Positions 229-8,910 of a DNA stretch of 33,507 bases are shown in pieces. Numbering within the stretch: the first letter of the stretch is position 1; each line of letters opens with the position of its first letter. The position numbers and the translations under genes were made by a program. Origin of the DNA: Candidatus Aenigmarchaeota archaeon LH_S4 (lineage in GTDB: Archaea; Aenigmatarchaeota; Aenigmatarchaeia; QMZS01). Under the pieces are notes generated by a model. That model did no database searches. It saw only the letters and a program-made list of their open reading frames with translations, and was not told the DNA's origin. The stretch lies in contig JAGXOI010000005.1 in the NCBI GenBank assembly GCA_023659975.1, positions 1 to 33,507 of the forward strand, given 5' to 3'.

Positions 229-774
229 TTATTTAAACCTAAAAGAAACAAGTTTCTCTAATTTCTCTTTTTTCTCTTCACTCAAAAAACCAATTTTCTC
301 TTTAAAAATCGTACACTTGATTTTTCCTTCAAGGTTCAAAGAAAAATAATTCCTGTTTTTATAGATCCATGCCTCTATATTTTCAAGTTCCAGAAGTTTT
401 TTTATTTGTTCTAATTGCCCTCTTTTCCCGGAAATTTTTATAATTCTGTTTTTTACTGAGATTGAACTTTTTCCCTCAAAAAATCCTTTCAAAAAATAAA
501 CTCTTTTTTCACTTTTATCCAAAATTTTTATTGGTAAATTATTTTTGTTTAAAGGCAGGTTTATTCCAAAAACTCTAAAAAAATCATTTAATTTTTTATC
601 TTTTAGGCAAACAGTAATAGTTGTACTTTTATTTATATCAGGTTTTCCAATTTCACTTAGTAATTTAAAAAAAAGAGCTGCAAGTCCTGGCCTTTTTGTT
701 TGTAATTCTACTCTATTCTTTGATTTTATTGATCCACAGGAATAGAAAAGTCCAAGTGCTTTAAAATTATTCAT
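229..774 (-). CDS. Degenerate two-domain LAGLIDADG-family protein
   Basis: 181 residues. Two LAGLIDADG-like helices are visible: ALGLFYSCGSI at 6-16 and FLKGFFEGKSSI at 94-105, each followed by a strand-rich half and an EQIKKLLELENIEAW-like helix, the normal order in single-chain homing endonucleases. The acidic residue that binds metal in each motif is replaced, by Cys13 in the first and Lys102 in the second, so DNA cleavage is not expected. The fold probably survives as a nucleic-acid-binding protein, as in other domesticated members of the family; that is inference. It is a free-standing gene, not inside an intein or intron, and shares a 26-bp divergent spacer with the coiled-coil gene at 801. 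Start ATG 774. Confidence 0.6.
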   Translation of the reverse strand: MNNFKALGLFYSCGSIKSKNRVELQTKRPGLAALFFKLLSEIGKPDINKSTTITVCLKDKKLNDFFRVFGINLPLNKNNLPIKILDKSEKRVYFLKGFFEGKSSISVKNRIIKISGKRGQLEQIKKLLELENIEAWIYKNRNYFSLNLEGKIKCTIFKEKIGFLSEEKKEKLEKLVSFRFK

Positions 775-1649: not shown

Positions 1650-2390
1650 ATGAAATTAGACCAGCACTTTGTTACTGACAGAGAAGTCTTAGTAAGAATT
1701 GTAAAATTAGCAGAAATAAAGAAAGATGAAACTATTTTAGAAATTGGTCCTGGAACAGGAAATTTAACAAAACTACTAACTAAAAAAGCAAAAAAAGTTT
1801 ATGTAATAGAAAAAGACAAAAACTTATTTTCTGCTCTGAAAAAAATAGATAGTAAAAAACTAAAACCAATTCTTGCCAATGCACTTAAGGTTAAGCTTCC
1901 AAAATTTGATAAGGTCGTGGCAAATATCCCTTATTCAATTTCTGAGGCTTTGATTCAGAGATTAATCTATGTTAATTTCAAACTTGCTGTTCTACTCCTG
2001 CCGGAAGGTTTTGCTAAAATTATTTCTGAAAAGAAAACAAAACTTTCTTTAATCTCAAATCTTTTTTTCAAAATAGAATTAGACAGAAAAGTTTTTCCAG
2101 ATTCTTTTTCCCCCATACCAAAAGTTTGCTCAAGGGTTATTTTACTAAAACCAAAAATTCCAAAAAAGAATGAGTTAATTTTTAGGGAATTCTTAAAACA
2201 AACAGATAAGAAAGCAAAAAATGCGATTAGAGAAGCAATTATAATAGGGAGAAATAATTTTGGAGAAAAAGTTACAAAAAGAGAAGCAAAAAAGAGTTTG
2301 GAAAAATTTAAAATTAACAAAAAAGTTGCAAGTCTAAGTTTGAAAGAATTAGAGGGGGTAAAGAATTTTATAGATAGTTTAAATTTTTAA
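1650..2390 (+). CDS. rsmA: 16S rRNA dimethyladenosine transferase (RsmA/KsgA/Dim1)
   Basis: 246 residues. Class I SAM methyltransferase that dimethylates two adjacent adenosines in the 3'-terminal hairpin of small-subunit rRNA late in 30S assembly. Visible: the family N-terminus LDQHFVTD (3-10), SAM-binding motif I EIGPGTGNLT (31-40), acidic motif II VIEKD, and the catalytic motif IV ANIPYSISEAL (91-101), where the NIPY tetrad (92-95) replaces the usual NLPY. The C-terminal helical domain is complete and length fits the archaeal family. It starts 12 bp after the coiled-coil gene and ends 6 bp before rpl30, so a three-gene unit is likely. Confidence 0.95.
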   Translation: MKLDQHFVTDREVLVRIVKLAEIKKDETILEIGPGTGNLTKLLTKKAKKVYVIEKDKNLFSALKKIDSKKLKPILANALKVKLPKFDKVVANIPYSISEALIQRLIYVNFKLAVLLLPEGFAKIISEKKTKLSLISNLFFKIELDRKVFPDSFSPIPKVCSRVILLKPKIPKKNELIFREFLKQTDKKAKNAIREAIIIGRNNFGEKVTKREAKKSLEKFKINKKVASLSLKELEGVKNFIDSLNF

Positions 2391-4850: not shown

Positions 4851-4940
4851 TTATTTAGTCTTATGTCTCATTTTTTTCCTCCTCTTTTTTAGTTTATGGG
4901 CCTTTATTTTCCCTTTCTTTCTTTTTTTACCACATGGCAT
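4851..4940 (-). CDS. 29-residue basic peptide resembling mS38/COX24 (AURKAIP1 domain) and eL41
   Basis: Not in ordinary gene predictions because of its size. ATG at 4940, stop TAA at 4853-4851. The peptide starts MPCGKKRKKGK and ends KKRRKKMRHKTK: about 60 percent Lys/Arg with no acidic residue. This matches the pattern MP(S/C)GKKRK..K...HK.KKR....RHK.K known from a tiny Bacteroidetes ribosomal protein and the C-terminal domain of mitochondrial mS38, and its second half resembles eL41. Such peptides thread into rRNA near the decoding-site helix h44 at the subunit interface. It lies back to back with rps8, ATGs 22 bp apart, with a TATA-like ACTATAAAAG upstream. Assignment to a ribosomal role is inference from composition, pattern and neighbour. 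Confidence 0.6.
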   Translation of the reverse strand: MPCGKKRKKGKIKAHKLKKRRKKMRHKTK

Positions 4941-4962
4941 TATTTAATTACTTTTATAGTTT

Positions 4963-5346
4963 ATGAGACACGACTTACTTGCGGATGTTTTTTCAGCAAT
5001 AAAAAATGCTGAGAGAGTAGGGAAGAAAGAGACTGTTGTAGGAAATAGCAATCTTGTCAAAAATATCTTGAATATTCTAAAGGAGAAGGGTTATATAGAG
5101 AGTTATAATGTTTTAATGAGAAATAACTATCAGGAACCCCTTGTAAAACTGAAAAACAAAATAAATGAATTGAAGGTTGTGAAGCCAAGATCTTCTTTCA
5201 AGAAAAAAGAGATAACCAAATTTAAGTCCAGATATCTACCGGGAGAAGGAGTAGGATTTCTGCTTGTTTCCACACCAAAAAATAAAGTAACTACAGATAG
5301 AGATTTAAAAGAGGAAGGAGGAATTATACTTGGATATGTCTATTAA
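4963..5346 (+). CDS. rps8: Small-subunit ribosomal protein uS8
   Basis: 127 residues. Primary binder of the 16S rRNA central domain (h21). The start RHDLLADVFSAIKNAE and the C-terminal block LPGEGVGFLLVSTPKNKVTT followed by GGIILGYVY are the uS8 signatures (family: G.G..I(I/V)STS.G.M(T/S) ... GG..LAYV(F/Y)). Length normal for archaea. It stands alone instead of between S14 and L6. No leader to speak of: the ATG lies 22 bp from the divergent peptide gene. Confidence 0.95.
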   Translation: MRHDLLADVFSAIKNAERVGKKETVVGNSNLVKNILNILKEKGYIESYNVLMRNNYQEPLVKLKNKINELKVVKPRSSFKKKEITKFKSRYLPGEGVGFLLVSTPKNKVTTDRDLKEEGGIILGYVY

Positions 5347-7163: not shown

Positions 7164-7349
7164 ATGGCGATTCTAAGACAGAAAGAAATTTCAAAAATGA
7201 AAAAAGAGGAATTATTAAAAAAGAAAAGAGAATTAGAGCTAGAATTGGCTAAGGAAAGGAGTAGTGCAGCAATTGGGGGGACAGTAAAGAATCCCGGCAG
7301 GTTAAAAGAAATCAAAAGAACTCTTGCGAGGATTAAATCTATAAAATGA
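7164..7349 (+). CDS. rpl29: Large-subunit ribosomal protein uL29
   Basis: 61 residues, an antiparallel helical hairpin at the peptide-exit side of the ribosome. LRQKEISKMKKEELLKK, the long charged helix and the final GRLKEIKRTLARIKS follow the uL29 pattern (..IR.M...EL...L.EL...L ... GR...IR..IAR). The stop overlaps the aIF1 start by four bases (ATGA), giving translational coupling. L29-SUI1 is a surviving fragment of the ancestral archaeal S10 operon order. Confidence 0.93.
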   Translation: MAILRQKEISKMKKEELLKKKRELELELAKERSSAAIGGTVKNPGRLKEIKRTLARIKSIK

Positions 7350-7654
7350 GTGAGATTTGTCCAATTTGTGGTTTGCCAAAGGAAATTTGTGTTTGTGAAA
7401 AAGCAGCCAGAGAAGAACAGAAAATTGTTATTTATACAATAGTTGGTAGATTCAAGAAAAAAATCAGTGCAATTTCTGGAATTGACCAGAAAAGAGTAGA
7501 TGTTAAACAACTATTAAAAAAATTCAAGCAAAAACTTGGCTGTGGTGGAACAATAAAAAACAATGAACTTTGGCTTCAGGGGAAACACAAAGAAAAACTG
7601 AAAGAACTACTTATGGAGGAGGGTTTCAAAAAAGAGCAGATTGAGATAAAATAA
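7346..7654 (+). CDS. Translation initiation factor aIF1 (SUI1)
   Basis: 102 residues. Binds the 30S P site and secures start-codon selection. Residues 1-18 form a small Cys motif, CPICGLPKEICVC, also found in many archaeal aIF1 proteins. The SUI1 core follows: strand KIVIYTIVGRFKKKISAISG, then VDVKQLLKKFKQKLGCGGTI with the conserved (K/R)KF...GCGGT loop, and the terminal LQGKHKEKLKELL...GF block. Coupled to rpl29 by a 4-bp overlap and followed 14 bp later by the primase gene. Confidence 0.93.
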   Translation: MSEICPICGLPKEICVCEKAAREEQKIVIYTIVGRFKKKISAISGIDQKRVDVKQLLKKFKQKLGCGGTIKNNELWLQGKHKEKLKELLMEEGFKKEQIEIK

Positions 7655-7668
7655 TTTCTCTTTTTCTT

Positions 7669-8910
7669 ATGGCATTAACTAAAGAACAGTTAGTTGGGTA
7701 TTATTCAAATGAGAAATTACAGGAAATTCTCTGGAATTTCGGGAAAAATAGGGAGTTTGTCGCAAGAAATATTGAAGGGCAGTATTTTAAAAGACCAAAT
7801 ATGCTTCTTTACCCAAAAGATGTTTTGAGGCAGGTGGAACTTGGAGCTGTTTCTTTTCACTGTTCTGTTGAGAGATGGAGAAACCCATTATTGGTAAATG
7901 AAAGAAATTATAATGAACAGAGAATTGGTTCTGATTGGGTTATTGATATTGATTCAGACAAAGGAATTGAGGAAGCAAAAATTGCTGCAAAACTTGTAAG
8001 AGATTTTCTGGATAAATATAAAGTTGGTTATTTGTTAAAGTTTTCTGGTAGAAGGGGTTTCCACTTCTGTGTTTTTTGGGAAAATTTTCCTGCAGAGATT
8101 AACTATAATAAGACAGAGAATTTATATCCAGAACTCCAAAAAATTTTGGCAAGTTTTTTAAGGGAGCAAATCAGAAACAATTTGTGGGCTGAGCTTGTAA
8201 AACATGCGGGATCAATAAAAGAATTAACAAATGGCAAAGCAATAGAGGGCATAGACCCCTTTAAATTTACTGAGGTTGAAAAAGATTGGAGTATAAGGCA
8301 TTTGTTTAGAGCTCCTTACTCCTTACACGAAAAAACCGGATTAGTTTCTATTTTAATAAAACCGGAAAACCTAGAAAATTTCAAGGTAGAAGATGCAAAA
8401 ATTGAGAAAGTAAAGTTTGAAGAAATTGAATTAAAGAGAGAAGATGCAACAAAATTAGTAGTTGACGCTTATGACTGGAGTGCAAAACAAAGAGAAAAAA
8501 CAGAATTAAAACCAAGAAAGGAAGTAGTATTATATAGGGGAAAAATCAGTCCTGAAAATTTTCCTCCATGCATTCAAAAAATTCTGAGTGGAATTCCTGA
8601 TGGTAGAAAGAGAAGCGTATTTACTTTGATAACTTTCTTGAAAAGTTGCAATTGGCCTATGGTAGAAATTGAAAAAACTGTTTTAGAATGGGGGAAGAAG
8701 GTTGGATTACAGGAAAATTATATAAAATCACAGTTAACTTGGCATAAAAAACAGAAAAAAAATATTTTATCCCCAAACTGCAAAAATGATCTATTCTATA
8801 AGGATATAGGAATATGCAAACCTTTACCCCTCTGCGAAAAAATAAAAAATCCAATTAATTTTGCAATTTTAAAAGTTTCCGGAAGAAAGAAGAAGAGGAG
8901 AAAGAAATAA
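7669..8910 (+). CDS. Fused DNA primase, PriS catalytic domain plus PriL Fe-S domain
   Basis: 413 residues. Makes RNA/DNA primers for replication. Normally archaea use two chains, PriS and PriL; here both essential parts are in one. PriS part (about 1-240): RPNMLLYPKD, the metal-binding Asp93 and Asp95 in WVIDIDSD, the nucleotide-binding SGRRGFHF (126-133, His132) and HLFRAPYSLHEKTGLVS (211-227). After a linker, residues 295-400 match the PriL C-terminal 4Fe-4S domain: PPC at 301, then Cys371, Cys383 and Cys389 with a helical core between and the terminal NPINFA. The PriL N-terminal domain is missing. Same design as the monomeric primase of Nanoarchaeum. Basic tail GRKKKRRKK. Confidence 0.9.
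   Translation: MALTKEQLVGYYSNEKLQEILWNFGKNREFVARNIEGQYFKRPNMLLYPKDVLRQVELGAVSFHCSVERWRNPLLVNERNYNEQRIGSDWVIDIDSDKGIEEAKIAAKLVRDFLDKYKVGYLLKFSGRRGFHFCVFWENFPAEINYNKTENLYPELQKILASFLREQIRNNLWAELVKHAGSIKELTNGKAIEGIDPFKFTEVEKDWSIRHLFRAPYSLHEKTGLVSILIKPENLENFKVEDAKIEKVKFEEIELKREDATKLVVDAYDWSAKQREKTELKPRKEVVLYRGKISPENFPPCIQKILSGIPDGRKRSVFTLITFLKSCNWPMVEIEKTVLEWGKKVGLQENYIKSQLTWHKKQKKNILSPNCKNDLFYKDIGICKPLPLCEKIKNPINFAILKVSGRKKKRRKK

Follow-up and report, generated by a model that had tools for sequence, protein, structure and literature searches.

A 29-codon gene head to head with rps8

The window, by which we mean the whole 33,507-nucleotide stretch of DNA analyzed here, carries on its minus strand, at positions 4851 to 4940, an open reading frame that runs over 29 codons from an ATG start to a stop and encodes the peptide MPCGKKRKKGKIKAHKLKKRRKKMRHKTK, exactly as in the preliminary description. 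Upstream of the ATG there is a single extra in-frame codon and then a stop, and the start is without a Shine-Dalgarno (SD) sequence. A 22-bp intergenic stretch (4941 to 4962), read from the sequence, separates this start codon from the divergent start codon of the uS8 gene (rps8; 4963 to 5346, plus strand; PF00410, E = 8.1e-18), the two genes lying head to head.

The contig is archaeal, given that it encodes archaeal-type uS8, aIF1, RadA, a fused PriS/PriL-type primase, uL30, uL29, and KsgA and that the nearest named relatives of the host genome (a 779-kb assembly, 72% complete) are Aenigmatarchaeota. The genes for uL30 (2397 to 2765), uS8, uL29 (7164 to 7349), and aIF1 (7346 to 7654) stand in the window apart from a full S10/spc operon. 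A 413-aa open reading frame (7669 to 8910, plus strand) has matches to the small subunit and to the large subunit of archaeal primase, as a fused PriS-PriL, and a free-standing LAGLIDADG open reading frame (229 to 774, minus strand) has archaeal IF-2 as its closest NCBIfam model and probably corresponds to the intein region of that protein.

A search with the 29-mer detected the peptide throughout the genus (nine of nine genomes) and in 25 of 60 relatives. We then built a profile (A1) from 22 archaeal copies and used it to search the phylum Aenigmatarchaeota, where it matched 57 of 156 genomes, mostly as whole families rather than as a random scatter. Because the carriers include single-contig genomes (G122, G125, and G133), contamination can be excluded as their source. 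A broader profile for diverged copies gave only partial, noise-like matches in the 99 genomes of the phylum that lacked a match. One contig scan with the peptide yielded 15 loci, and we left its absences out of account, as low-complexity filtering probably drops such lysine-rich peptides. The peptide is under strong purifying selection: pN/pS was 0.031 across the nine genomes of the genus and 0.128 across 52 genomes, heterozygosity at the first, second, and third codon positions in the latter set was 0.152, 0.153, and 0.506, and amino acid identity was 0.81 in frame but 0.41 and 0.40 when the two alternative frames were read. Missing homologs in relatives and a lack of purifying selection had been named beforehand as evidence that would count against the peptide, and we found the reverse of both. 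Together with the family match described below, the orthologs and the codon conservation identify the open reading frame as a real gene.

The head-to-head arrangement with uS8 was kept in 10 of the 11 genomes of the window's family. Outside the family, at other loci of the phylum and of other archaea, the neighbors differ, so the adjacency to rps8 that had been pointed out holds at the locus and within the family but not elsewhere, and we rejected the idea that linkage to rps8 is general. As read by eye from the sequences, the neighbor in family f4 is a 116-aa protein, and in families f16 and f10 it is an ~85-aa membrane-like protein, often followed by a GET3/ArsA-like ATPase or a PIN protein. 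Gene order thus varies between families while the peptide stays constant, implying that the conserved unit is the peptide itself.

The ~85-aa, apparently membrane-bound protein is itself conserved downstream of the peptide gene at loci of f16, f10, and f32 (such as L049, L058 to L060, L062, and L069). In many f16 genomes, the gap between the two genes is from a few bases up to some tens. Often a gene for a GET3/ArsA-like ATPase or PIN-domain protein is also present, and the arrangement looks operon-like.

Membership of the bS22 family

When we searched all PDB chains with phmmer, the only proteins matched were bS22 proteins, namely, those of Borrelia (8fmw_V, E = 3.7e-4) and Flavobacterium johnsoniae (7jil_5, E = 0.008) and chain 9i5v_10 (E = 0.015), in alignments that were free of gaps, began at residue 1, and covered nearly the full length. 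Short lysine-rich sequences limit the statistical power of such comparisons. In a shuffle test against bS22, however, the z scores were 8.8 to 11.3 and none of 2,000 composition-preserving shuffles reached the real score, showing that the likeness is no artifact of lysine and arginine content. Copies in bacterial genomes are also close: MPSGKKRKRQKIKTHKLKKRRRANRHKKKIR of Zixibacteria is 72% identical to the archaeal peptide, and MPCGKKRKRKQMAKHKLRKRMAKMRHKKK of Acetothermia differs little from it.

The traits of bS22 in our alignments (A2 and A5) are all present in the peptide: a length of ~27 to 34 aa, high basicity, and residues P2, G4, K6, H15, K16, K19, and R25. P2, K6, H15, and K16 are invariant in archaea and bacteria alike, and G4, R7, K19, and R25 are nearly so, G4 being absent from a few diverged copies (MPNL...). 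The peptide shares with the 27- to 31-aa bS22 proteins of Borrelia burgdorferi, F. johnsoniae, and their relatives (AURKAIP1/COX24 domain) an extreme basicity and the pattern MP[CSN]G[KR]KRK...HK..KK.....RHK, without gaps over nearly the full length. It differs from them in its archaeal host and in a preference of the archaeal copies for K/R13, L17, and M24 (KxHKLKKRRKKMRH), at which stretch most of the sampled bacterial copies have HKRKKRLRANRH; in several archaeal copies, moreover, AUU or AUA stands at the start position. By sequence, then, the peptide belongs to the bS22 family of Bacteroidetes and spirochetes, the bacterial counterpart of mS38, in line with the mS38/COX24-like identity proposed earlier; that it is an archaeal bS22 is almost certain. 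A tree of 30 archaeal and bacterial copies (30 columns) had no well-supported fork and fits both transfer from bacteria and an older presence.

The likeness to mitochondrial mS38 (AURKAIP1/COX24) is more distant, consisting of a low-scoring alignment of residues 5 to 27 to PF08213 (COX24_C; 11.8 bits, below the gathering cutoff of 23 bits) and a published common binding site. Little weight attaches to the missed cutoff, because the structure-verified bS22 proteins of Borrelia and F. johnsoniae gave no match above it either; the cutoff does not define the bacterial family. For the same reason, and because PF05162 (eL41) was empty in all 14 control genomes, the lack of PF08213 and PF05162 matches in searches of the host genome is not diagnostic. 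An NCBIfam search with the peptide gave no match. The archaeal peptide consists of the core alone, whereas mS38 is longer, with an extension around that core, and the single codon available upstream of the peptide's start rules out a long protein of the mS38 type.

Two departures from the standard gene were seen among the archaeal copies. Four diverged copies (L080, L081, L082, and L083) begin with MPNLRK or MSNLRK in place of MPCGKK, so that the N-terminal hook is altered while the helical part is kept. In G143 (locus L077), the intact gene (1884 to 1976, plus strand) is directly followed by a second, tandem copy (2021 to 2092, plus strand), KRKKMKKHKLRKRRKKTRHRSKK, which is truncated at the N terminus and has no evident start codon.

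bS22 and eS32 in archaeal genomes

Across 392 archaeal genomes, the bS22 profile matched 73, comprising the 57 Aenigmatarchaeota and 16 of the 236 genomes sampled outside the phylum. The peptides from outside the phylum are clear family members, as exemplified by MPCGRKRKKQKIRNHKLKKRRRKMRNKG in the single-contig genome G319, and in the phylum of G188 bS22 is present in 24 of 29 genomes. Starting from a Thermococcales eS32 (eL41) protein whose sequence we confirmed against solved structures, we gathered 70 archaeal loci into a second profile (A3), which detected eS32 in 111 of the 392 genomes. None of the 73 genomes with bS22 had eS32, nor did any of the 156 Aenigmatarchaeota. For genomes outside the window's phylum, zero overlap had a probability of ~2e-5 when counted by genome and 0.002 when counted by family, figures that ignore phylogeny and are indicative only. 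Such mutual exclusion is what a shared ribosomal pocket predicts. Many archaea, including 99 of the 156 Aenigmatarchaeota, have neither protein detectably, which implies that the pocket need not be filled.

Published structures have already placed eS32, bS22, and mS38 in a single cavity, which lies between h27, h44, and h45 (PMC7005279, PMC10618245, PMC10085706); the equivalence of the three sites, which the preliminary description had drawn on for eL41 and mS38, is therefore not new, and uS22 has been put forward as a common name (PMC10085706). In Pyrococcus abyssi, this region of eS32 contacts modified P-site nucleotides and its C terminus contacts aIF2gamma (PMC7005279). The RWKW core of P. 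abyssi eS32, with Arg15 contacting ac4C1479, is absent from the archaeal peptide.

The common site and the mutually exclusive distribution would also be expected if the peptide were a diverged archaeal eS32 that merely resembles bS22, or an intermediate in a single family embracing both. Like the peptide, eS32 (33 to 38 aa in archaea; 25 aa as eukaryotic eL41) is short and basic and frequently has a non-AUG start. The C-terminal half of archaeal bS22, too, is weakly like eukaryotic eL41 (mean z of 2.4 against human eL41, versus 0.2 for bacterial bS22), and the whole peptide scored z = 3.1 against human eL41, with 12 of 2,000 shuffles reaching the score. Profile comparison by hhalign with 32 archaeal eS32 sequences, however, gave probabilities of only 1.6% for archaeal bS22 (A1) and 0.4% for a mixed bS22 alignment (A2); the shuffle z against archaeal eS32 was 1.8 to 1.9, and PF05162 did not match the peptide up to E = 1. 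The W.KK.....RWKW core of eS32 is missing, as are R15 and W16, which are invariant in A3 and absent from A1, and the peptide is far nearer to bacterial bS22. No eS32 was found in the host genome itself with PF05162 and the archaeal eS32 profile. We therefore consider an eS32 origin very unlikely. Of the earlier suggestion that the second half resembles eL41, a weak likeness to the eukaryotic protein survives and a likeness to archaeal eS32 does not; the idea that the peptide links eL41 and mS38 in sequence was not borne out, and a "missing link" between them is unproven. Convergence on one rRNA surface would explain the weak eL41 likeness as well as common descent.

Two further readings concern whether the peptide acts on the ribosome at all. 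Free bS22 of Cutibacterium acnes is inhibitory both to the growth of bacteria in a disk assay and to in vitro protein synthesis (PMC10085706), and a conserved basic peptide could likewise have kept the bS22 sequence for a role off the ribosome, in nucleic acid compaction or as an antimicrobial. A near-invariant sequence over large distances and an exclusive pattern with eS32 both fit a fixed rRNA pocket better, and we rate such a role as less probable still. As for a chance open reading frame or a noncoding element, the frame is very short and lies in AT-rich DNA with many lysine codons, but the low pN/pS in the genus and the frame-specific conservation refute it, and orthologs persist across many families and phyla despite altered surroundings; we give this reading practically no credence. 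Our preferred reading, which we hold to be very probably right, is that the open reading frame genuinely encodes a ribosomal protein, an archaeal member of the bS22 (AURKAIP1/COX24-like) family, that apparently replaces eS32 in its pocket.

Predicted ribosomal role and apparent noncanonical start codons

By analogy with the bacterial structures, archaeal bS22 would consist of a short hook at the N terminus and one helix and would lodge below the decoding/P site, in the cavity that lies between h27, h44, and h45 of the 16S rRNA. The hook (MPCGKKRK) would be buried near h44 and h45, with the remainder forming a helix toward the 50S side, and the invariant P2, K6, H15, and K16 and near-invariant G4, R7, K19, and R25 would serve as rRNA contacts. 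So placed, the peptide may stabilize the base of h44 and the decoding region and aid a bridge to the 50S subunit. We infer from the same analogy that it binds the ribosome in this very pocket and functionally replaces eS32, filling the place that eS32 has in Thermococcales and many other archaea.

Among Aenigmatarchaeota bS22 genes, the codon before Pro2 was ATT in seven and ATA in three, preceded by an SD sequence of the GGTGAT type at a spacing equal to that before ATG in sister genomes. No in-frame ATG, GTG, or TTG alternative was available in G130, G143, and G145; the bS22 loci with AUU or AUA at the start position and no such alternative within the stretch examined are L066, L070, and L077 (the last in G143). 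In the remaining ATT or ATA genes, an in-frame GTG three codons upstream is a possible start, and G025 also has an ATG two codons upstream. Of the 70 archaeal eS32 genes, 11 have ATA at the start position, whereas 15 start with TTG, 2 with CTG, and 2 with GTG, and 10 of the 11 ATA genes lack a canonical alternative within the stretch examined (L123 to L126, L128, L130, L135, L147, L154, and L158); an SD-like motif lies upstream in most of both sets. For Borrelia bS22, a GUG start has been reported (PMC10618245). As a control, uS8 began with ATG in all 17 readable cases among the 25 genomes of the set, a control that consists of one gene, in draft assemblies that could hide errors. In most bS22 genes outside the window's phylum, we saw by eye a TATA-like TTTATAT ~23 to 30 bp upstream of the ATG, which fits leaderless transcription in archaea.

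In bacteria, infC has an AUU start and is subject to feedback through start codon stringency. That weak starts recur in both proteins of a pocket adjacent to the P site suggests feedback of the same kind. It is conceivable, though we think it unlikely, that the archaeal pocket protein, whichever of bS22 and eS32 it is, controls its own abundance in the manner of infC, with ribosomes that carry it discriminating against AUA and AUU. If so, the pocket protein would be a start codon fidelity factor, and bS22 and eS32 would be two interchangeable archaeal solutions. The recurrent AUA and AUU starts offer a testable link between a P-site-adjacent protein and archaeal start codon selection.

Our literature search, which covered few subscription journals and preprints, gave no earlier description of an archaeal bS22; one paper describes, in general terms, some eS32 homologs of bacteria and archaea as similar in sequence to that of Pyrococcus furiosus (PMC11724365). 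A bS22 family in archaea and its mutual exclusion with eS32 therefore appear to be new findings. They place a bacterial and mitochondrial protein family in archaeal genomes, and in those searched either bS22 or eS32 is present, never the two together. Part of the apparent loss of L41e in earlier phylogenomics (PMC3353972) may be explained in this way. An archaeal bS22 also supports uS22 as one universal name for the site, and it makes a definite prediction of what a ribosome structure from any DPANN archaeon should show.
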